Assembly: GCF_000006405.1 (NCBI RefSeq)
Contig: NW_003216052.1
Span: 73,103 to 94,332 of the forward strand
Direction: 5' to 3'
DNA length: 21,230 bases
From: Perkinsus marinus ATCC 50983
Lineage: Eukaryota; Perkinsozoa; Perkinsida; Perkinsidae
This document shows, piece after piece, positions 121 to 14,006 of the stretch. Under the pieces are notes generated by a model that did not search any database, had not been told where the DNA came from, and saw nothing but the letters and a program-made list of their open reading frames with translations. Each line of letters starts with the position of its first letter. Within the stretch, counting starts at the first letter, position 1. Both the position numbers and the translations under genes were made by a program.

Positions 121-1546
121 ATGATGCCTTCTCAGACACACCTTCCCGACGCCCCCTCCCACCAGCGAGGTCCTGCCCCCAGCAGCAGCAGCAGTCCTGT
201 CCACACCGAGTACAGTAGCTACCTCGGTGGAAGGGGAGGAGGAGGAGGAGAGGGAGTCTGTAGAGCCCAAGATAATGCTCACTACCTCCATGGCTGTAAT
301 ATGGAAAAATAGCGGGTGTGGGAATCGAACTTGGGACCTTCCTGATGGGGGCGAGCATTCTATACGTTGTCAGTATCCCTCCGAGCGATCATACGGTCTC
401 ATTAAAGAGCTGGTGGAAGTGGTGCCGGGCCTGCAGTACTTCCGGAAAAAGCATTTTCCTATCACCAAAATTTGCGACTTTGCCAACAACAGAGGATTCA
501 CAGCAGTCGTGGTAAGCTAGGGCGGACTTCCTCACTCACCAAATGTGACTGCCTCTCTATGCGTGGTAGAATGGCTTAGGGGAAAATGAAATTCGCGTTA
601 AGGCTTGTATGGACTAAAAGTGTCCCTACTACAGGAGGTCTCAGTTTGGTCATTCGCACCTGCTACTGGCTGAATCATAGTGCAATGTGTGGTATCGAAT
701 GGCGGCATTGACGTGGACAGTTTAGATATGCTCATTGGATGTGTAGGTATTATCGGAGGATAGGAAGCACGAGCCATCCTCGCTTCATATCACCAGTCTA
801 CCTGAAGGCCCTACTAGCTATTGGAGGCTAACTAGTTTGGAACTGGGAGCTGATATGAAGCATGGAGCTACATGTAATAGGTCCGGCGGGTATAGTGGGA
901 TGCCACTGAAGGTGTATTCAGGTAACCCGGATGACCGTCCTGAACTGCTGTTGAATGGTTTTGGTACGAGGCTTGGTCACAGAGTAGGGAGGCAAATTGG
1001 AAGCCTTTTCGGTAGGCATATCTCCTTGCACCTTACTGCAGATCAGGGCATCTTGTTGGTGGCGGTGAACGGTCGTTCCCAGTTGGTGCAGCGATTTGTC
1101 CAACGAGACGTTAACCTCCTGAATAGTTACCCGAAAATTCACGTTCCGTCGCTACGTATCTTCTTAGTAGTGGCTATCATCGTTACATCATAATTCACAG
1201 TATCGGATTTGCTCGTCCATACATGTTCGATCAGCTGGCTTTGGTCAGGTGCTATCCAGCCGGACTTCAAGGGCCGAAGAGTAGTCGCATTCCACAACCA
1301 ACGGGACTTCGTATTCTTCCGCCACTACCGGTAGTAGTTGATAATTTCGTGGCGCGCGGTCAACAATATATCAGCACTTAGTCGTGATATCTCAGGTACG
1401 TCTTCCGAGATCTCGAGAGTACCGACAAGGATGATCGATGTGCCTTGCAAGAAATAGGCCCCCGGTTCACGCTCAAGCTGAGGTCATTGCAGCTAGGCCT
1501 GTTCGCCAAACGTAATGGGGAGGATGAGTTCGAGCGCATCAATTAA
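121..1546 (+). CDS. RPF1: Ribosome production factor 1 (RPF1), Brix-domain 60S assembly factor, multi-exon
   Basis: RPF1 is a nucleolar Brix-family protein needed for pre-rRNA processing and 60S subunit assembly. My exons are 121-169, 216-295, 374-511, 747-873, 922-1147 and 1396-1546, giving about 256 residues. Family landmarks appear in order: PKIMLTTS (human RPF1 has PKILITTS), KELVEVVPGLQYF, FANNRGFTAVV, SEDRK, LPEGPTSYWRLTS, LLLNGFGTRLGHRVGRQ, RYVFRDLE, QEIGPRFTLKLRSLQ, then a short acidic tail and TAA at 1544. Frames join exactly across the introns 296-373, 512-746 and 874-921. The first exon (ATG 121, intron 170-215 with weak donor GTCCTG) and the junction 1148-1395 are the least certain, and the segment 1012-1147 is poorly conserved. 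The N-terminal arm before PKI is much shorter than in human RPF1 (about 349 residues) and carries a Glu run. The 78-nt intron 296-373 holds an antisense tRNA-like sequence. Family call firm; exact ends approximate. Confidence 0.85.
310..366 (-). pseudogene. 5'-truncated, decayed tRNA-Gly-like sequence, antisense in an RPF1 intron
   Basis: On the minus strand the intron reads as the 3' three quarters of a tRNA. A TATAGAATGCTCGCC stretch resembles the D-arm/anticodon-arm side of eukaryotic tRNA-Gly. It is followed by the T loop TTCGATT (323-329), a 7-nt acceptor strand (311-317), discriminator A (310) and a T5 run (305-309). The spacing from T loop to T run is exactly that of a tRNA. The T stem no longer pairs (CCAAG against CCCAC) and the 5' acceptor and D stem are missing, so it is not a working tRNA. 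The Gly identity rests on remembered tRNA consensus and is tentative. Confidence 0.6.
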
Positions 1547-2363
1547 TATACAATCACTACGTATCGGATTAGTTCGATATAGACGCCTCTTCCTACGATG
1601 GTCGAGTTTATCTGATGCCAATGGAGGTTGTTCGTGTCTGCATCCTTCCTCTATTAGGTACGGGGGAGTATGAGTATGTATGGAGACCCGACTCTCAGGT
1701 CAGCCGGAAGGTCTTTGCTCTATAGTTCTCCTCATCACATTACCAACGTTTCTTTTCTGCGCACTTAAGGAGTTATCGTGTTAAATGTAGTGGAAAGTTG
1801 GTATAAATACATGAGCATCTCGATGATTGAACACAAATCGCGTTACGCAATAGTAGTAGAAGAATCTTGGTATTGTGAACTGGTGATGCTGACGGAAGGT
1901 GCAGATTGAATTATGACGTTGTCGTCTATGACGCTGTGAATGTGTGGGAGGATCTGTGAGTGCAACTCCACCAAATAATGGCAAAAACGGAATCTCAATA
2001 TTTCGATAATAATCACTGATAGCTGTCCATCATCTGTGTGATGAGAAAGTAACTCGAAAACTCGGTGCAACTTCGCGACTCCATCATCCTTTTTTCGCTA
2101 CCAATCTATGCATCACCCGAGGTGATAAAAGCGCATACAGCAGTGCTTTATGTGCCGCGATAGTGGACATTCTGTATTTGCCATAGAAGTGTAGCGTATA
2201 TTATCAATAGTCTTCCTGTCACAAGAAGATGGCCCTTATACCAGACTACGAACGCGAGGTATTATCATCTTCAACGAGAACGGGCACGACTCGAGTAGCA
2301 ACGTATGTTACATGATACTGACTGCTAGCAGGGAAATGCCGAATCACACTGTAAATTGACTTC
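1547..2363. other. Non-coding stretch between two convergent genes
   Basis: This 0.8-kb stretch separates the RPF1 stop (plus strand) from the histidine-kinase stop (minus strand). It should contain both 3' ends. I see no conserved frame, tRNA or repeat in it; the reading frames present are short and resemble nothing. Confidence 0.6.
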
Positions 2364-5300
2364 TCATTCAGAAGTGTCTCGTCTCCGCATAGCCATCGTA
2401 GAGGGGCCGCGTTCGCTCGGTAGTGCCTGAGGCTGAGGTCGTCGATCATAGCCGTGCATTAGGAGCCTACCCATACGCCGTTCAGAGGAGGGGCCTGCGT
2501 TGTTGAGCTCCTCTACCATGAGGGTAGAGCTCTGTGGGGGGTCATGACCGTTGGACGACGTGACTGGATGCCTGACACCGCAGCATGTGGTAGCGATAAG
2601 TATTGAAGTAGCGTACCCTAGACCCAACGAAGGAGGCATGCCGTAGCCCTGTCGTCCGAAACCGACCTTGATCAGACCGGATACCTTGTCGCCGGGCAGC
2701 TGATCAGTCCAGGAAGTGGGCAATTTCATGGCGCAGCGGTCATTCTCACCAACATCTGATCCCTGGCCTGTCTGATCATATGCCGTGGATCAGCCAGCTC
2801 TATCTCCCTATGTCGCAGTGTCTGAGGAGGCAAGTGGTTAGAGAAGGTGGGCAGAAGATGGTACGAGACCTGCTGCATAAGTTCCATCTTGCTGGCCATC
2901 GCTAACAGCTTCGCCTGCATTGTCTGATTGTCCCTAAACAGCACGCATGCACACCCCTGCTGCCCCTTCTCCACTACTTCGCCAATATTTGGTTGTCACT
3001 AGCAAGCTGTGATGTCTTGCCGTGATGGTATCTCATCTCCAGCATAAGATGCTTCACGTCTTGTTGCGCGTTCAGCAGCGCTTCCTGAAGACCAGCAGTC
3101 CCCCATCTAGAGGAGTGCTTTTTCCCTAAGACCTGAAGGTCCTTGATTTGTCTATTAGCCCTTTCACCCGCGACCAAAGCAGTGTGGCCTGAGTACCGGC
3201 ATCCCTCCTGCCCTCAAGGACCGATCCCACCTGATTTCCCCCCAGCCCTAGCAGCAGCCTCATTCTGCATCTTCACAATCTCGTTATTGAGCTGGTGGAT
3301 GATATCATTCTGTTGCTTCATCACCTACACCTCCACGCCTGGGACCTCCAAAGACCATCCCATCATCCGTACCGCTGCGGCGTTGTTGAGCGGACGGTCA
3401 GCGACTGACGACTTGTACATCTCTGCTTCGGCCTGCTTAGCCGCAAGCAGCCGTCGCAGTCCCTCCACGTCCGCCGATTCAGTGTCAGTACCACTCCTCC
3501 GCGACATCTCGGTAATAGGAGATCTCCGCTCTCTCTGTTTTAGTACATAACCTACCAGCCGGTCACCGACCACAATACGGGTCTCTCTGTTTCTCCCCAC
3601 CTTTCGTTTTCAACCGGCTGATCTCCATTTTAGTGGCTTCTAATTCGCCCTGTAGGCATCCCCGACGTATCTCAGTATCAGTGAGGTCCTTCTGCAACTT
3701 CACAACAATCTGAGCCTCCTCCCCACGGCTATTCAGCTGCTCCTCGAGCCGCTTCAACTCCTATCAATGAACTACTACTTCGCTACTAATGTAAGATCCC
3801 CGTTAGTGATACCTCCTCCTTTGCCAGAAGCGCCGTCTGCAACTGCTGAACCTGCAGCCCGAACAAGCCTTGCGGTTCACTAGTGTTAGCCGCCGTGCCG
3901 CCGGTGACCGCCTCCAATAGGTCTTCTGTATCGGCCACATAGTCCTAATCCAAGAGTCGACGACGCCGAAATGACCCCTCCACAAACTCCTAACCTGTAT
4001 AAAGTCTATCTCCTTCTGAAGAGTCCTCATAGTTTTTATTAATGGATGCATAGCATCGTCGGAGCCTACTCCCACTTGATCTACCCCATCACCATCCTGA
4101 CCAGATATGCATACCATAATGAAGGATAGATCTGCCGTACTTCCTTCCCCCCTCCCCCATCAGCCTCCGAGCCGTTGTCATTCTCCTCCTCTTCTACGAC
4201 CGCCTCTTCAGCAGCTATCCTCTTCTGCTCAGATTCGATCTCTTGTGCGAGACCGGTGGCCATGACGATCGAGTTCACCACTTCCTCCATCGATGTTATC
4301 ATCTCTTCCGCCTTCTCTTGCGACGGCACCATGTCTGTCTGGTCCCCCACGTGGAAACCAATCTGAGGGCCAACAATCCCACTATATACTAGGCCGGTTC
4401 CTACTCACCTTGACAAGGTCCCTCAGAACCCTATGAGCCCTTCTCGCCTCCACATTTGCCTCTGTTGCTTGAGAGTTGAGCTCTTTGATCCGACCCTCTA
4501 GGTCTGCTAGTCTGAGCAATATCGGATGCCCAGAAGCCTCCCCAGCACTTCTTCCTCCTTCCTAAACCATTATTGTGGCTTCACGAGTTGGTACTGTCTT
4601 CAATACCTCCATTAGCTTCCCTCCAGCAGCACTCTGGGGCATCACTTTCCTCTCCAGCAGTTCCGCAGCCCGACCCTCCTCTTCCTCTGCATACGCTACT
4701 ACTTCCATCAGAGTCTCACAGATGCCTGATCGAGACCACAGGCTCATACTAAAGGTGCCCCCCCACTGCGATGGGTCAAGTCCCTTGGACTGGGATAGAC
4801 GAGTAGTGGCTCCTGCTATATTACGCTCCATGGGTTCCACTAGACTTATGGCATTGTTAGCGTTGATGGTTCCTTTTCGTCGGAGCTGCTCCTGTATGAG
4901 GTCGGCCTGTGATGTCGCCTTCTGAGCTACTCCGCCGTCGTTGCCGATGGCAGTAGCTGTTGCTGCTATAGAGGCGGAGGTTCCATGTAGAATACTGAGC
5001 TCTGCTTCCAACTCTTGTATACGTTCAAGCTAACGGTACGACGAGTACACTCTCCAAGGATCGGACGTAGATTCTACCATGTCTCCGGAATCATCACCCG
5101 TTGCCCCACCGACTGTGAGGACGCCCAAAGCCTTCAAGTGGCACAAGTCTTGGTCGGCCTTCTCCTTGAACAACCACGTCTGGAGGGTCTCAGAGTCTGA
5201 TACTCTGAGCTCGCCTCTCTCTTGGAATGAGAACAGGCCCGAACCCTCATGCTCTCTCATAATCAACTTGTAAGTCTCATTGCCGACATGTGGGTGGGAG

Positions 5301-8300
5301 GGAACACCCGTTTCAGCGAGCCACTCGGCAATCTGCACCCCCGGTCCGAAGAAGGCGTACTGTGGAGCCTTGGCTCGGCCGCCGATGACACCAGCATAGG
5401 CCAGGCCTGTGTTTACGCCTATTTTGAGCTTCATGGTTTGCCCAGTGCTGCCGATTTTCAATTGCTCGGCTGAGGAAAAAATACTGGAACCGAGAATCGA
5501 ACTCGGGACCTACTGCGTGTTAGGCAGTCGTCATAACCAACTAGACCATTCCAGCGATGAAATACCCACACTCACCGGGAGCAGTTATCGCACGGGAACT
5601 CACCCTTCAACAGCTTGCTAGCAAATCTCAAGGCCACTTCTGTATGCTCATCATTCGTCGACTCATGCCCGCACACAGCCAGAAATCGCTCCCCATTAGA
5701 AAGCACAGAATACATCCCATTGTCTTTACAGAGCTGGTCGAAACTATTCGTCATTTTATTCATCAGAACAACCAATTGTGTAACCGGCACCGCCTGACCA
5801 AGATCCCTTCCATTACACCAACCCGAGGCTTCGTCGTCAGACCCACCTGCGTGATGAGAGGAAACTGATGCACAACCGCCGCCACGCAGCTGACACATTC
5901 CAACTTATCCGCAATCATTGTGGCACCTCCCCTTAATCGATTAATGATGAATTTTGGCATCACCCGGCCCATCACCTGGAATGAAAGAAGACCTCCCACC
6001 CGAGTCAAATTTCAGGATGCTAACACCTCGTAGTTGACTTTCGCCTTGTTCTCATGTTGAACATGATAACGGTTTCGTATAAGGGCGAAAATGTGGTCAA
6101 TGATGATGGGTAGCTTCTCCTCTGTGACAGGCTTCGTGTAGACTGCTGTAGCCCCTCTCCGTATAGCCTCAAGGTGACTAGACGTCTCTTTTGACTTAGT
6201 AATCACCAGTATCGGTACCTCGGAGGGAGCGCCGTCGCCAACTACCATGCCACTGTTGTAATCTCACCTCCGGTGGCTTCTCTCTCCTGAACTGACTCAA
6301 GAAGTCCAGGCCGGGCAAGTTGCCAGGCAGTTCCGTCTCCATAATCACTATATCAGGCATCGGGTGCATATTGAAGTAATCCAAAGCCGCGAAACCATCG
6401 GTAACCGTATTGGTCTTATAGGCTCGATCCACCAGCATTGGGCGCAGTATCGTCGCAGTGTCATCGCTGTCATCAATAATCAACACTTCCTTCACCGCGA
6501 GCTCGTTGATGGTGTTCTGTAGATCTTCCAGGTCATCTCCTTCGCCAGCTACACCCTCGTCAGCCATAACCTAACAAGGTCCGCTCAGGAGGCGGTGTCG
6601 ATAGGAATACCATTTTCTGTGTCAACTCCTTCTTCTGAGCACGCTTCTTGCTTCGAGCATCCACCACTTCACGAGCGTTGGACACCAAGTCAATGAAGAA
6701 TGTGGCTGAGGGAGAGCGGTTCATAAACGAACTCCTTCACTACGACATCAGCAACTGCAGCATTCAACGACACCAAGGCAGGTCAAGAAGGCTGTGTGAT
6801 TTCTATACAGTGGGATGAACTCCGGCTGGTATATTCTAACAGAGCCTGGCGATTCAGAATATGATAGTTAGTTCGTCTGGATCGTTTCCCACGGTGAGAA
6901 ACCGCGAACCAGTTTTCGGTTCGACGCTCGTGCATAGTCACAACTAGTGAGCGTCGTAGCAGGTCTGGGGGTCCGGCTCTTACTCCCTCGGCCCGGCTCC
7001 GACTCGCACCATAATCTTCCACCATGCAGATTGATAACTTCATTCGATACTGACAGCCCCAAGCCCAGACCCTCGAACCTGAGGGAGACTCGAGTACTCA
7101 CGAGGGGGGAGGGGGACGAAAACAGGATCGGGCCAGAAGGAGAGAGAAGTCGAACTGATGGATCGAATTGCTTCTCCATGTCGTTCTCATTGCCGAGGAG
7201 TTGATCAGAATGAGATCATTGATAATAGCGAGAGAATGCCGTCTCAAATGGAGGTAGCTCACTTGCGATTTTCGTGATCGTCATCCTCTTGCTCAAACTC
7301 TGTGAATATTCGTTTCACATTGTCATCAGCAATGCCAATACCCGTGTCTACAATCTTAATTAGTACCTAAAAATGACATCACCGAGGATCGAACCCGGGA
7401 TCTCTTGCTACTCACCCCTCTGGCCTTGCCCTTGGTGATCACCTTCACTGATCCCTTCGATGTGAATTTGCACGCGTTATTGACCATAGCCGACATCACA
7501 TAGTGCAACCTGATTCACGCCGTCACTGCGCCACAAAATTCTCACTCTACAGTGTGGCCCAAGGCGTTATGCAAAGTAGTACTTACAACGCCTCCAATTT
7601 GTGAGAGTTCGAAGGTTAAATTTGAGTAATATCAACATGATGAAATGTGAATCGATTGACACCAACGTTTTAGAAGCTTTCCAAAGTCTATAATTCTCAA
7701 ATTGAAGAAAACCACCTGGAAAATCCATAACTGTTTGGCTCACACTCTAACTCCCCGGCCCAACGACAACGGAATCACAGTGTTCAGCTTCAATGCTCAT
7801 CACCTAACCCTCAATAGACCACACGTCTCTATATGCCCCTCACTGAGTCCATTCCCATACCGACGATGATCGAGTCGAAGTAACAGTCGAGCGCACTTAC
7901 CTCTCCTTGTCGCCTTCAACCTCAGGGCATGCGGGGTCCGGTATGAAGTCTAGATCGACCTTGTCCTTCTTGATCTTCCTTCCTCTCTTGTCCACTGCCT
8001 CCATCATCTCTCCACATACTTGCTCACATATCTCGTTCACCTTAGGCAATCGTCACGCGCCACGAAATTGGCCCAAGATGCTCCTACATTAACCATACCA
8101 AAATTCAACTGCATCTTCTTCGCCTTCAACGCCGCTATGTCCATAATCTCATTCACCAATGCCAACAATCTAACCTAATTTCCGATAACGAAAAAAACTT
8201 CGCTCCGCTAAGAAATTCCCTCCCCAGTACTGCACAGTTATTAATAATATCCAAATGCTTCTTTCTCCCCGGATTGGGCTCTGTCATCCTGAGCGATTCC

Positions 8301-9206
8301 GAGAGACCAATGACGCCATTCAGAGGAGTTCCTAAAACAGTGTAGGTCTTTGGAGATTAAAAACAGCTACCAGAGCTTACTGAGCTCATGATTCACTGTT
8401 GCCATGAAGCTATCCTTCTTATGCTCTAACTCACATATCTTGGTGCAGTCTCGTAGTATAGCACATAGCTTGTAGTCGCCAGGATCCGAGTCGAAACTGA
8501 GTGAAACTGTACACAACTTTTCAATCTGAAATTCAACAATGGAAAGAACAAATTAGATGAATGAAATTTGATTTTCGACGAGTGAAAGGAGTTCTTCACG
8601 AAATGAAAGTTCAAATTCGAAACGAAAGTTCAAATTCGTAAATGAAATTTATGAGTTCGGAAACGCAAGTTCAAATTCGTCGAACACAAGACCAATTCCG
8701 ACCAATCAAAGCTCAGCTACTACTACTACTACTAGCTATGATCGCGGAGGCTTACAGTATCGATACGAACAACGAGCTTGGAGTAACCTGCCCATCCTTG
8801 TGCTTCACTTCGACATTCCTACTCTCGTCCACGTTTATCTCTGAGTTGGGACACTATCATACCACTGCTTTCCAAAATCATGTCCTACTCGGGCGTCGAG
8901 TAGGGTCCATCGCCATGGCCTCGTCTGCCTTCTTCACGAACTGCTGTAGCAACGAGTCGTGACTCACCGCCACTCTGTCGGGCATGAGCATCTTTATGTC
9001 GCGACCGATGAGCTCCTCAGCTTTGAACCTATCAGGAATATCTTTCTATGCTCTTCCATTCCTCACCCTTACCCAGTCCATGCCTCTGATTGGGAGTTGC
9101 CGTATACGATCTTCCCTTGGCGGTCCGTTAGAATGACCAAGTCGTTGGATATCTCAGCGAAGGAGTCGATACCGCGCCAGAATGCATTGTTCTGGCAGTC
9201 CACCAT
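2364..9206 (-). CDS. Hybrid sensor histidine kinase: PAS-HisKA-HATPase-receiver-(degenerate) class III cyclase-coiled coil
   Basis: Exons (minus strand): 9206-9073, 9028-8889, 8840-8756, 8496-8381, 8331-8231, 8174-8088, 8040-7901, 7509-7416, 7366-7263, 7078-6984, 6705-6611, 6570-6268, 6218-6027, 5975-5847, 5793-5604, 5469-5078, 5029-4607, 4561-4409, 4362-4141, 4096-3995, 3944-3813, 3760-3601, 3551-3373, 3324-3231, 3188-2978, 2933-2750, 2699-2364. Phase is continuous, giving about 1530 residues. PAS (about 10-125): [43 protein letters not shown]. His[15 protein letters not shown], His156. HATPase: N box NNACKFT (Asn279), G1 DTGIGI (Asp306), G2 GLGLGLS (337-343). Receiver (about 424-545): acidic pair DD 430-431, Lys527, but Glu475 where Asp is expected. 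Cyclase-like (about 563-790): [16 protein letters not shown] and flanks are clear, yet the metal Asp sites read Ala (594/595) and Glu640, and Asn/Arg read Gln/Trp (about 714/718). Residues 800-1450 are Glu/Gln/Lys-rich and look coiled-coil. No membrane segment was seen. Function inferred: intracellular sensor kinase; cyclase activity doubtful. The start is the first in-frame ATG before the PAS; further N-terminal exons are possible. Confidence 0.88.
5470..5481 (-). terminator. Shared element: pol III T6 terminator and pol II 3' splice-site pyrimidine tract
   Basis: Directly after the tRNA discriminator base the minus strand reads TTTTTTCCTCAG, and the next base begins the following kinase exon (5469). 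The T6 run (5481-5476) fits a pol III terminator for the tRNA, and together with CCTCAG it forms the pyrimidine tract and AG acceptor of the host intron. The dual role is inferred from position. Confidence 0.7.
5482..5555 (-). tRNA. tRNA-Val (anticodon AAC), nested in an intron of the histidine-kinase gene, same strand
   Basis: A full 74-nt cloverleaf can be drawn. Acceptor GCTGGAA/TTCCAGT is fully paired, with one G-U. The D arm carries an A box (TGGTCTAGTTGG). The anticodon stem ACTGC/GCAGT closes the loop CTAACAC, anticodon AAC (Val, GUU codons). The variable loop is AGGTC, and T stem CCGAG/CTCGG has loop TTCGATT (B box). Discriminator A lies at 5482, followed at once by six T residues (5481-5476). 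The gene fills most of the 134-nt intron 5603-5470, between the two halves of the cyclase-like domain. Intact pairing and A and B boxes suggest a functional gene; expression is not shown. Confidence 0.88.
7374..7403 (-). pseudogene. tRNA 3'-half relic forming the body of a 49-nt kinase intron (7415-7367)
   Basis: The intron starts GTGAGTAGCAAG and then holds a variable-loop remnant, T stem CCGGG/CTCGG (one G-U pair) with loop TTCGATC, a 7-nt acceptor strand TGATGTC and discriminator A (7374). TTTTT and AG follow, and the AG is the acceptor. The 5' acceptor, D arm and anticodon arm are absent, so the isoacceptor cannot be named. Splicing out this intron joins the HATPase segments KGKARG and [12 protein letters not shown] in frame, so the intron call is strong. 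Confidence 0.8.
7510..7900 (-). other. Large (391-nt) kinase intron with no recognised content
   Basis: This is the longest intron of the kinase gene, between the dimerisation-to-HATPase linker (ending GDKER) and the N-box exon. It begins GTAAGTGCG and ends AATCAG. I find no tRNA-like element, repeat or reading frame in it. Introns 8755-8497 (259 nt), 7262-7079 (184 nt) and 6983-6706 (278 nt) are the other long ones; all remaining introns of the gene except the tRNA-bearing one are 40-56 nt. Confidence 0.75.
8600..8679. repeat. About 20-bp imperfect tandem repeat in a kinase intron
   Basis: Units resembling AAACGAAAGTTCAAATTCG start near 8600, 8620 and 8661, with a more diverged unit at 8639-8660. 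The block lies inside the 259-nt intron 8755-8497. Related AT-rich words (ATGAAATTTGATTTTCG) continue on the low-coordinate side to about 8555. On the transcribed strand the repeats are pyrimidine-rich. Confidence 0.7.
8717..8734. repeat. (CTA)6 microsatellite
   Basis: Six uninterrupted CTA units lie about 20 nt inside the 5' end of the 259-nt kinase intron, (TAG)n on the transcribed strand. It may be polymorphic. Confidence 0.85.
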
Positions 9207-9783
9207 AGGGGAGGGAAGAGGAAGGTATCCTGAGGTCCAGCATGCAAGATACAGAATAGGTCAGGCATACACTATTGGTGAACAATACCAAGAACCTCTA
9301 CAGAGAAACACTGCTGACCCTAAACCAGTACAGAGTACATATACAACGCTGTCTCACTCACCGTATTCTCGAAGAGCCGCTCTCTATGAATGGCTATCGT
9401 TACTTTCAGCTCAGTCTGTATGAACTAGCATTAGTCTACAAGGTGCAGTCTATACATCTTGCGCACTCATATTACCTTGCATTTCCTCAACGGTTCCTTA
9501 TTTCGTTCGGTAGGGGTCTCCAAGAGTCCCTAGGGGCCCACGCTTGCTCTATGTTTTCTCTATGGCTTCTGAAATTCCTCTCCGCCTTTGTATCCTTAGG
9601 TTGCGTTGGAAAGATACAAAATAGGTCAGCTTGTAGACTTTTCTGTCGCGGTAGATATTTTTACTTTGGTGTATAGCGACTTGAATTTATCTCTAATTCT
9701 GTACTCACCCATGAGGGGGCCCATTAGAGTATCGATAACCCTTCTAGCGTTAGTGTAGGACATTTTGGGGTCCCTTACACACC
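9207..9783. promoter_or_regulatory. Divergent upstream region shared by the kinase gene and EFTUD2
   Basis: This 577-bp stretch separates two start codons facing away from each other: kinase ATG at 9206 (minus) and EFTUD2 ATG at 9784 (plus). No TATA box stands out. A 19-bp direct repeat with one mismatch (AAGATACAGAATAGGTCAG at 9246-9264, AAGATACAAAATAGGTCAG at 9611-9629) brackets much of it. The promoter role is inferred from layout only. Confidence 0.45.
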
Positions 9784-12700
9784 ATGTCCGACCAGCCGCT
9801 CTACGATGAGTTCGGCAATTACATAGGGCCCGATAGCGATGTTGACGACGCCTCTGATTACGAGAGTAGTAGCCTGACCTTCTATCCATACCACATTTCC
9901 GTCACTTCTTCTTGGATAGGCTCTGCTGGAGGCTCCGAATACGGCGGGGAGGCAGCCGCGGCGGCTAGCCAAGAGGCAGTGCCGATGGACACCACCGAAG
10001 ACGGCGCCCCTGTCGAGCAGAGGATCGTCTTGGCGGAGGACAAGAAGCATTATCCCGATGCCGATGAAGTCTATCCAGAGGCTGAAGTCGTATTCCAAGT
10101 AATAAGGTCTCAACGCACAGCGAAGATTTCGGATGGCATGGTATCTTTAGGATGAAGATACCCAACCGTTGACCCAACCCATCATTGCCCCTACAAAGAC
10201 CTTTGACTTTGATAAGCTGGAGAAGGAGGTACTACTACTCCTCCCTGCTATCCCTCTATGACTCGTACGGCTGCTTAGGTCCCCGAGCTGGTTTATGATT
10301 ATCATTTCCTAGCGGGTCTGATGGAGCACCCCAGCCTCATCAGAAACGTCGCTGTTGTCGGTGGCCTCCATTCGGGGAAGACTCTGCTGTGTGATTTGCT
10401 GGTCTCCCACACGTGGGCTGACAGGAATAAGAAGCTCGGGAATCTCGATAAGGAGGTCAAATACACCAATTTTAGAGGAGATGAGATNNNNNNNNNNNNN
10501 NNNNNNNNNNNNNNNNNNNNNNNNNNNNNNNNNNNNNNNNNNNNNNNNNNNNNNNNNNNNNNNNNNNNNNNNNNNNNNNNNNNNNNNAACTGAGGTACTA
10601 CGAGGGGCATGGTCGCTGGATTTGAAGATGGTGTGGTAGGTATGTAATACAGGAGCTCAACAGCTATATCAGAGAAGAATGCGAGCTGATGGGCTTGGAC
10701 AAGGACGACTACGTGGTGTCTCCCATCAGAGGCAATCTCGCCTTTGCCAGTGGGCTCTACCAGTTCGTCTTTACTACCTACTCGTTCGCCAAGTACTATG
10801 TAGAGGCCAATACTGAGGCCTTCCGAACCAGTGGGGCCGATCAGAACAATGAGTCCAACGGTCTGCCGGCAGCCTTTGGGCGAGCCTCTCAGGAAGGGGG
10901 TCTGCAGCCGCACCAAGTTAACGAGTGTGCTAGACGGTTGGCACGTGGCATGTGGGGTGATGTATGGCGCGACAAGAAGACAGGACAGTTCGTGAAGTCC
11001 CCGCCAAAGGACCAGGGGGAGGTTCAGCGCACCTTCGTCGAGTTCTTCCTAGTGCCACTGTATAAGATGATCGGTCATACCATTGGCGAGGAGCAGGAGT
11101 CTTTACAAGTGACTCTAGGGGATGTTGGCATCTATCTATCTCAGAAGGATTACTACGCTAAGTCCACTAAGTAGGTTTCAGTAATCGATACACATTCTCA
11201 TCATCCTTATCAGTGTTTGATGATCCCTGTCGGTGGTGGTAGTAGTTGCGGTTTCAGGTCCCTTCTCAAGAAGGTTCTGTCGCAGTTCTTCGGCGGTCCT
11301 CAGCCGCTCATTGACCAGATCGTAGCAAAGCTCCCGAGCCCTCAGGAGAACGCTGCTGTATGATCATATCTATCGCCCTTCCCTCCTACCACTCCTTTTC
11401 CACTTCAGAATAAGATCTCTAAGATCTACTCTGGCAATCAGACCAGCCAGATCGCTGATGACATGCGCAACCTCCGTGCCAACGGGGAGCTGCTGGTCCA
11501 CACCTCGAAGAACTATCACAGGTAGGTTGCTATCCGTCCTTGAGCCACCCTAGCTGTCTCCCCATCAGGTCCGACATGTCCGGCTTTGACCTCTTCGGTA
11601 GAGTCATGTCTGGCACCTTACGAGTTGGGGATAAGGTTAAGTAAGACCACTCCGTGAAGTTACGGGTGATGGATGATATTCTTTTCAGAGTGCTAGGAGA
11701 GCGCTATACGTTGGACGATCCTGAGGACTCCAAGGTGGAGACAATCGAGCAGCTGTGGATATACGAAGGAAGGTAGTCTTCATGCTGTCAGCTGCTGTGA
11801 TAAGGTTATCGTGCTGTATCGACAGGTACCGCGTTGAGGTATCTCATGTGCCTGCAGGCAACTGGGTCCTCATTGGAGGATCATTGGATTCGGCTGTAGT
11901 CAAGACAAGTAAGGTTGGGTCTTGGTACCCTCTGCCCCGACCATAGGAACTTTACGGATCTACTCATTTGAGGCTGTGGTTGAACAGATCTCATAGACTC
12001 TAGCATTCACACTGTGAATAGGTTAGGTATTGCATGAGGTATGGGATATGCAGTAGAGTTGGCTTCCTATAGGCGTCTGGGAACCCTCGAGGTGTTGCTA
12101 TCGGAACAAGTGTATATTTTGTGGCTAATTGGAAAAATCATAATCATTCTGATGCACCGTCCGGGGCATTCTCTTCGTGGTAGGTACAATAATAGCTGCA
12201 GACAATACAGATGATGTGGAGATCTGTCGGCCTCTGAAGTTCGCGACTACTGGTTCTGTTAAGGTAGAGGCTCGATGGGTGGTCAGCATTCTGACTGGTA
12301 TCTGTAGATTGCCTGCGAGCCGCTCAATCCGTCAGAGCTTCCTAAAATGCTCGAAGGGCTTAGGAAGATCGACAGGTGAGTCGGAGAATCTTAGGGTCAA
12401 GCTCTTATGATACGCTTTAGGTCCTTCCCGCTCGTACAGTGCAAGGTGGAGGAGTCGGGAGAGCACGTTATCATCGGCACTGGCGAACTCTACTTGGACG
12501 TTATACTACATGACTTGAGGAAGCTGTATGGCGATATCGAAATCAAGGTGGGTGCCTCTGCCCGGTTCCTTGCCACATCGTCATCTCAGGTCTCGGATCC
12601 TGTGGTTCCCTTTTGTGAGACGGTGATAGAAACGTCACAGTTCAAGTGCTCAGCGGAGAGTACCAATAAGCAGGCTAAGCTTTACATGATTGCCGAGCCG

Positions 12701-14006
12701 CTGGAGAAGGTGGGGGGTTGCGGTTCGACGGAGGTGCGGTATAGCGTTGTCTTCAGGGGATAGCAGAAGCGATTGAGTCTGGTGTTGTGACGGGTCTTAC
12801 TCCTACGAAGGAGAGGGCGGATATCTTCGGCAAGCAGTTCGGCTGGGATAAGCTTGCTGCCAGGAACATTTGGTAGGTCGCCTAGTCCCGCATCAAGGAC
12901 GTATAGCATGAACCCTTCAGGGCTTTCGGGGCTGACCCTATCCACGGCACTAATGTGATCCTCAATGAGACGCTCGCGACTGATGCGGAGGCTAGGAACT
13001 CCCTCAACTTGGTAGGTCGATCTTGAGAAAGGTTCCGGCTGTCGTGACTCCGCTGTGGCAGATTCGGGACAGTGTTGTGTCGGGCTTCCAGTGGGCGACT
13101 CGAGAAGGCCCTCTCTGTGAGGATAACGTTCGCAACGTCAAGTTCAAGCTCTTGGATGTGGTCACCACGAATGTGACAGTAATGACGCTTGTGGGATTCG
13201 AACCTGCGCCATCGCCCTTCTTCCTAGGCTGGCGGTATTGGTCTCGGATCGGGTCAGATCATCCCAGTAGCCCGACGAGTGGCCTACAGTAGTATGCTAA
13301 TGGCCACGCCCAGGTTGATGGAGCCGATGATGTTCGCCGAGATAGACGTACCATCTCTGCTGGTGTAAGTAGCATCGCATAGCTGGTTTTCATCTCAGTG
13401 CCCAGCTGACTGTGTCTCGGCCGTCTACACCGTCCTGTCCCGTCGTAGAGGACATGTCCTTAAGGATGTCCCTCGAGTAAGCTGACCGCATCTACTATCG
13501 TTTCTCGCCGTACTCCTCTTCCTATCAGCCCGGCACTCCTCTCTTCTGCGTCTACGCCTACATCCCCTCCATTGAGACCTTCGGCTTTGAGACAGATCTC
13601 CGAACACATACTTCTGGCCAAGCATTCGGCACTACAGTCTTCGACCACTGGTGAGCAGCATCTTGAGAGAGACGGCGCCCTGAGTCGTTGTTGTTCAGGT
13701 CGGTGGTGCCAGGGGATCCGCTAGACTCGTCTATAATACTGCGTCCTCTAGAGCCGGCACCACAGCCGCATCTGGCTAGGGAGTTCGTAAGTTGGCGTTG
13801 AGGAATAGGGCAATAGTATTGCAAGTGGTAAATGTGTAGGTGATCAAGACTCGCCGTCGTAAGGGTATCGGTGAAGATATCAACGCCCATAAGTACTTTG
13901 ACGATCCGGAGTTGGTGAGCGGTCTTTCGCGAGTCGCTAGATAAGTACTCATGGTTAGGTCCAGCGCCTCCAGGCGGAAGATGCAACGGCTGCTGATGTA
14001 TTCTGA
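9784..14006 (+). CDS. EFTUD2: U5 snRNP 116-kDa GTPase EFTUD2 / Snu114, multi-exon, interrupted by an assembly gap
   Basis: EFTUD2/Snu114 is the EF-G/eEF2-like GTPase of the U5 snRNP that controls spliceosome activation and disassembly. Exons: 9784-10098, 10151-10228, 10279 into the gap, then 10653-11170, 11258-11357, 11409-11521, 11569-11640, 11689-11772, 11826-11908, 12184-12263, 12308-12375, 12421-12547, 12590-12709, 12757-12872, 12921-13011, 13062-13178, 13228-13347, 13399-13476, 13529-13650, 13699-13786, 13840-13914, 13959-14006. The acidic N-terminus starts with the family signature [11 protein letters not shown]. The P loop is GGLHSGKT (about 159-166; GHLHHGKT in human). Later landmarks: [137 protein letters not shown], and a short divergent tail ending DVF. 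The switch, DTPGH and NKxD regions should lie in the gap, so GTPase completeness cannot be judged. The exon end just after the gap is uncertain. No disabling change seen. Confidence 0.96.
10488..10587. other. Assembly gap (100 N)
   Basis: There are exactly 100 N inside EFTUD2, just after the P-loop exon. Compared with the family, roughly 120 residues (switch I to the helix before ELNSYI) are missing, more coding sequence than 100 nt can hold. The run is therefore probably a placeholder of unknown true length. Confidence 0.95.
13183..13215 (-). pseudogene. Class II (Leu/Ser-like) tRNA 3'-end relic, antisense in a 49-nt EFTUD2 intron
   Basis: The intron 13179-13227 joins the exon ending TTNVT to the exon beginning [13 protein letters not shown]. 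Its minus strand reads GGCGCAGG, T loop TTCGAAT (13196-13202), CCCAC, a 7-nt acceptor strand AAGCGTC (13184-13190) and discriminator A (13183). This matches the 3' end of Leu/Ser-type tRNAs as I remember them (GGCGnnGGTTCGAATCCCAC). T-stem pairing is partly lost (GCAGG against CCCAC). The T run is reduced to TT because the 5' splice site GTAAT occupies that place. Confidence 0.6.

Follow-up and report, generated by a model that had tools for sequence, protein, structure and literature searches.

Introns carrying the 3' end of a tRNA in Perkinsus marinus and their possible introner-like origin

How new introns originate is a long-open question, and a stretch of the Perkinsus marinus ATCC 50983 genome raises it in a concrete form (21,230 nucleotides (nt) of contig NW_003216052.1, positions 73,103 to 94,332; here called the window and numbered from its first letter): four introns of this window carry the 3' end of a transfer RNA (tRNA). 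Did these ends enter introns that were already there, or are they what the introns were made from? The original prediction, drawn from the letters alone, saw in them a class of introns shared by unrelated genes and derived from reverse-transcribed tRNAs or a tRNA-derived short interspersed element (SINE), an interpretation which, taken as a whole, is partly supported by the analysis given here. Searching the whole genome (54.46 Mb, 347 contigs), we found a module of about 35 nt, corresponding to the 3' end of a tRNA gene, dispersed through all of it; about half of the sampled modules sit in ordinary GT-AG introns of about 49 nt, filling most of each. The data support a genome-wide class of introns with tRNA 3' ends, in both orientations. 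As to the source, we lean with about even confidence to an introner-like family of such modules, whose ancestor would be a tRNA gene or a tRNA-like RNA polymerase III (Pol III) gene, of which they represent the 3' end.

Four tRNA-bearing introns in the window

All four window introns begin with GT, end with AG and leave an open reading frame upon removal, just as predicted; judged by frame and protein homology, they are confirmed as real at the level of the sequence. Intron 3 (7367..7415, minus strand, 49 nt) carries its module in sense (7369..7403, minus strand; tRNA positions 44-73 at 7403-7374, followed by a run of five T (T5) at 7373-7369), reaches 39.4 bits when scored by a module matrix whose training loci lie elsewhere, and ends with A73 followed by TTTTTAG; the product of its joined exons matches a histidine kinase across the junction (E 4.8e-4). 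Intron 4 (13179..13227, plus strand, 49 nt) contains an antisense module (13183..13212, minus strand; positions 44-73 at 13212-13183), whose T run is not intact and which scores 26.5 bits. Its host gene resembles EFTUD2 (U5-116 kDa), and the homology crosses the junction with an E value of 4.5e-11, a 3-residue gap lying close by; within the same gene, positions 10488-10587 of the window are 100 N bases.

Intron 2 (5470..5603, minus strand, 134 nt) holds a whole tRNA in sense, namely a complete tRNA-Val(AAC) at 5482..5555 (minus strand; called by ARAGORN, 64.5 bits with cmscan), and after the run of six T of this tRNA comes the 3' splice site, CCTCAG. The joined exons show weak homology to adenylate/guanylate cyclases (Pfam E 0.0023, below its cut-off; PDB E 0.065). 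There are 17 identical copies of this tRNA genome-wide, its own copy counted, and an array of many tRNA-Val(AAC) copies, about 172 bases apart, is found at G000:C56:66-3458. Intron 1 (296..373, plus strand, 78 nt) has an antisense module (305..339, minus strand; positions 44-73 at 339-310, T5 at 309-305; 34.0 bits) with a mostly unpaired T stem. It lies in a putative plus-strand gene whose joined exons give no Pfam match, and its support comes from the open frame and from a paralogue on contig C22 with exons about 87% identical and an intron of about 54 nt, which contains a module, at the same place; a second copy with the same intron and module lies on C231.

A gene finder trained without knowledge of tRNAs recovers introns 2 (5470-5603) and 4 (13179-13227) but not introns 1 and 3; its first version over-predicted (2124 introns) and was discarded in favour of a conservative second one. 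When the window was scanned with ARAGORN and cmscan, the tRNA-Val(AAC) of intron 2 was the single call. The tRNA 3' ends of introns 1, 3 and 4, undetected by these programs, are borne out by their scores of 26.5-39.4 bits with the module matrix. In the window together with eight tiles (101 kb), seven matches exceed 12 bits, versus none in the reversed sequence; four of the seven are the window introns, the next match in the window reaching 10.3 bits.

By sequence, the T stems are paired in introns 2 and 3 and unpaired in introns 1 and 4, so that the proposed difference between paired sense and decayed antisense stems applies to these four introns; as a rule it shrinks to a tendency, pairing among sense copies elsewhere being incomplete too (pair 49-65 is formed in 19/34 sense versus 5/16 antisense copies). 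The start GTAAT, ascribed to antisense introns, is likewise present in introns 1 and 4 and in few others of the 11 antisense ones delimited by hand (4/35 introns overall) and does not define that class; GTGAG, GTAAG and GTGGG also occur.

A dispersed module and its association with introns

The module comprises tRNA positions 44-73 (AGGTC, the T arm with the B box, the 3' strand of the acceptor stem and A73) and then T5; the tRNA numbering, the A and B boxes and TFIIIC are used here as generally known. A B-box pattern, GGTTCGANNCC, gave 2596 strand matches in the whole genome, versus 314 for the reversed pattern. With a pattern fixing only the ends (AGGTC, one C and CATTTTT), 118 places were found versus none for its reverse, and a third pattern (B box, ATTTT and a nearby CAG) gave 145 matches versus none, some places being counted twice on account of its variable gap. 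Among the 91 distinct copies in the 100 ends-only matches listed, G53, T55, C56, A58 and C61, which the pattern had left free, are 97-100% constant.

The first 48 loci of the B-box list (contigs C1 to C9) yielded 50 distinct B boxes, with a tRNA-like A box upstream in 8 of them. In the other 42, which were not chosen for a terminator, a TTT first appears at position 74 in 16 cases and at any other position in at most two, and is lacking in the range covered in 16; A73 is present in 69% and C72 in 74%. The modules, in other words, have the exact tRNA spacing to A73 and terminator. The matrix was built from these 48 loci and from 20 loci chosen by the B-box/ATTTT/CAG pattern: of 83 windows, 73 were left after removal of tRNA-like ones and 59 were kept. 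It is informative over positions 44-78 and hardly beyond, the informative letters being A44, G45, G46, T47, C48, C50, the B box, G64, G65, G70, C72, A73 and T74-78, and the loose positions 49, 51, 63 and 66-69. Acceptor strands are diverse, with 83 different ones among 90 copies. Letters 63-64 are linked, being mostly TG, CA or CG, which looks like CpG decay (positions 63-64 and 50-51). No terminal inverted repeat (TIR) is visible by eye in the module consensus. The predicted loss of the tRNA 5' side holds genome-wide and in both orientations, except for introns with whole tRNAs.

Are these modules preferentially found in introns? In a tight test we required GT no more than 14 nt before the module, AG no more than 25 nt after it, and a frame open over 80+80 joined bases, and applied it to 37 modules that score above 14 bits and come from loci selected without regard to splicing, whole tRNAs excluded. 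At score 5, 19/37 modules pass (13 antisense, 6 sense), as against 10.4% of 1933 random places; at score 7, 16/37 pass as against 3.4%. Together with the dispersal of the ends-only matches, this bears out the claim of a class, here extending genome-wide. Modules in loci picked with the CAG pattern pass in 25/34 cases, and whole tRNAs, to whose length the test is ill-suited, in 3/27. After delimitation by hand, 32/35 introns join to an open frame, and homology spanning the junction was also found for DDX41, DIM1, kinesin, a second HATPase, DHX15, glutaminase and, with a 2-residue gap nearby, CBS; junctions matching homologous proteins thus number nine including window introns 3 and 4, six of them sense and three antisense (EFTUD2, DIM1, CBS). 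Of the 29 introns with a single open frame, 12, 8 and 9 are in phases 0, 1 and 2, respectively. At locus L013, a predicted 176-nt intron ending in GTTGCAG contains a whole tRNA-Arg(TCT) and is thereby a second whole-tRNA intron besides window intron 2; locus L038 looks alike.

If the ratio of 19 intron modules to 50 B boxes is extended to all 2596 matches, the genome would have about 1000 module introns whose B box is perfect, an estimate derived from few contigs. In the eight 10-kb tiles and the window, module-bearing introns make up a small share of all introns. The idea that most introns are decayed modules finds no support: 3 of 122 gene-finder introns (42-110 nt) score above 0 bits, with 0.4 expected.

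Module introns (n=34, the whole-tRNA intron excluded) and predicted introns without a module (n=88) have the same median length, 49 nt. In 23/24 sense introns 1-14 nt precede position 44, the whole-tRNA intron being the exception with 92, and in 23/24 the distance from A73 to the end of AG is 6-24 nt (48 in DDX41). T5 follows A73 directly in 19/24 sense versus 2/11 antisense introns, many of the sense ones having been picked by a pattern requiring T. None of the 19 sampled intron modules resembles another fetched copy beyond the edges of the module, the boundaries of the introns coinciding with those of the element.

Origin of the modules

Real tRNAs and modules part ways in the T stem. In the 27 real tRNAs of the fetched loci, pair 49-65 is formed in 26 and pair 51-63 in 27; in 80 modules the corresponding counts are 42 (shuffled mean 42.8) and 40 (38.2), and in 91 copies picked by their ends 52 (50.8) and 46 (44.3). 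No covariation at 49-65, 50-64 or 51-63 was detected in either set, which argues against a derivation of the copies from fragments of various working tRNAs. Since a T run, instead of CCA, follows A73, a mature tRNA is not a likely template. With its loose positions varied and its promoter letters constant, the module fits a lineage that may have kept Pol III signals and not tRNA folding. Of the two sources originally proposed, ordinary reverse-transcribed tRNAs are therefore disfavoured, and a tRNA-derived, SINE-like source is possible.

The introner-like reading would work as follows. A small non-autonomous element, mobile by way of its B box and terminator and not of tRNA folding, would have inserted into exons, and those copies that could be spliced would have persisted as new introns. 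The T5 run of sense copies lies just before AG, at the spot expected for a pyrimidine tract; that of antisense copies is mostly disrupted. Introns with a whole tRNA gene, such as intron 2, would form a longer class with the same end beside the 3' splice site. That the module fills most of an intron of ordinary length would follow naturally if element and intron were one and the same, and the loss of T-stem pairing at 97-100% constant B-box letters is expected of a Pol III element needing no tRNA fold. If so, a 3' splice site could take its pyrimidine tract directly from a Pol III terminator; the mark left by the tRNA 3' end in many introns would make their gain, loss and shrinkage countable between Perkinsus species and strains. 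We are more hesitant about a stronger version, according to which a self-propagating mini-element of about 35 bp, consisting of the B box, 3' end and terminator of a tRNA gene, has seeded on the order of a thousand spliceosomal introns. Equally tentative is its joint corollary, that half a Pol III promoter would be the defining part of this introner, whose spreading would have selected the promoter letters and not the folding.

Several results weigh against the introner-like reading. Among the sampled modules 18/37 fail the tight test, and around modules a coding-potential score exceeds the controls' 95th percentile in 20/113 cases versus 17/339 at random places, a weak signal. Of 35 introns that the blind gene finder predicts in the sample loci, 5 contain a module (lengths 40, 51, 54, 125 and 192 nt), and the last two exceed the limits set by hand; delimitation by hand is itself biased toward short introns. 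Counts of splice words beside B boxes are weak, and no reliance is placed on them: upstream, GTGAG occurs 116 times versus 94 for GAGTG genome-wide, with 40/94 in two tandem arrays on C60 and C171, and downstream CTCAC 114 times versus 47 for CACTC, arrays on C215, C288 and C289 being among the CTCAC places listed. Direct repeats of at least 5 nt flank the module in 0/35 introns, and 42/50 sampled B boxes have no A-box match upstream; without a target-site duplication (TSD) and an A box, no mechanism of transposition is identified. Similarity extends beyond the module in 3/18 non-intron modules (L001, L008, L091). Finally, joined segments of 31 of the 35 introns were searched in their own genome: 13/31 sites have a second copy, each with an intron-sized gap and none intron-free, and the module is kept in 13/13 introns examined, including one with exons about 87% identical, so that insertion would predate these duplications.

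Counting these three, similarity past the module is seen outside recognised introns at L001, L008, L085, L088 and L091 (for L001 and L085, 94% over 285 bases); longer module-bearing repeats at such loci might be the source of the modules.

The absence of an empty site among the 13 second copies also speaks for a rather unlikely alternative, namely that modules entered pre-existing introns, as tolerant sites of a gene-dense genome, and that deletions then restored an optimum of about 49 nt, leaving mainly the module. About half of the sampled modules do lie outside recognised introns, and lengths do change, intron 1 having 78 nt and its paralogue about 54 nt, both with a module. It is harder to reconcile with this account that module introns equal other introns in length and that little non-module sequence remains in them, although the placement, done partly by hand, favours such cases.

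More doubtful is a model close to that of the original prediction, in which pieces of ordinary tRNA genes or of pre-tRNAs were, each independently, reverse-transcribed or captured at double-strand breaks. The exact spacing to A73 and the T run from position 74, which resemble the tRNA genes of this genome, and the whole tRNAs in introns (intron 2, and the predicted one in L013) speak in its favour; the missing T-stem covariation, unlike in real tRNAs, the 83 acceptor strands in 90 copies, and information that begins at position 44 instead of at scattered truncation points speak against it.

Still less probable is that a B-box-like sequence is retained for a function of the intron, for example TFIIIC binding or as an aid to splicing. 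The B-box letters are nearly constant, and human intronic tRNA-like sequences can promote splicing (PMC7722341), but modules occur in both orientations, and nine paralogue pairs, a small number in which one member was mostly picked by its B box, show no additional constraint: changes amount to 7/99 in the B box, 17/171 in the rest of the module, 13/167 in other intron sequence and 24/476 in exons. Given the similar rates across the intron, the copies drift like the remaining intron sequence, and these small numbers lend no support to selection acting on the intronic B box. Chance matches, for which the shortness of the motif might speak, can practically be dismissed, as they are contradicted by the reversed patterns (0 versus 118 and 0 versus 145) and by the reversed sequence of the window and tiles (0 versus 8 above 10 bits).

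Known elements and assembly context

Among known systems, the module family behaves most like an introner, in that the repeated element is the intron. Introners, described in Amoebophrya (PMC7789003) and surveyed more widely (PMC9860276), are repeated elements that by themselves make up the bulk of spliceosomal introns across many unrelated genes, and the modules, too, occur in many similar copies as predicted introns of unrelated genes. They differ in that their core, B box and terminator included, corresponds to the 3' end of a tRNA, in varying between their conserved letters, and in that neither a TSD (0/35) nor a TIR was seen in them. In the survey, a TSD or TIR is frequent and not universal (59.2% of 130 introner families), most families are ascribed to DNA transposition, and its main text contains neither "tRNA" nor "SINE" as a whole word (PMC9860276). 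Introns of P. marinus are given as 39-1622 bp long, mostly below 100 bp (PMC3101222). Among the titles and abstract openings listed by searches of open-licence literature we found no description of a tRNA-end intron class, and the one paper found for introners in connection with Perkinsus is on Amoebophrya.

Modules share with tRNA-derived SINEs the dispersed copies and two parts that stem from a tRNA, the B box and the Pol III terminator. A tRNA-derived SINE is expected to have both A box and B box; the modules have no A box, their intron copies neither body nor tail, and the unit is only about 35 nt long. Dada DNA transposons occur in P. marinus itself and are likewise mobile DNA linked to tRNA genes, but they are autonomous and reside inside tRNA genes, and in three families the proposed TSD belongs to the A box, an element absent from the modules (PMC3706591). 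Human nimtRNAs are tRNA-like sequences within introns; they differ by their mitochondrial origin, their kept cloverleaf and their number (281 in 76 host genes), and do not form the body of short introns (PMC7722341).

The window lies on contig C215, and its single-exon protein of 1267 amino acids is 97% identical to Pmar_PMAR020284. Each of the four window introns has a near-identical second copy at G000:C231:239669-253151, with exons up to 99% identical, and several other loci are likewise present twice in almost the same form, as if the assembly had retained both haplotypes or recent duplicates.

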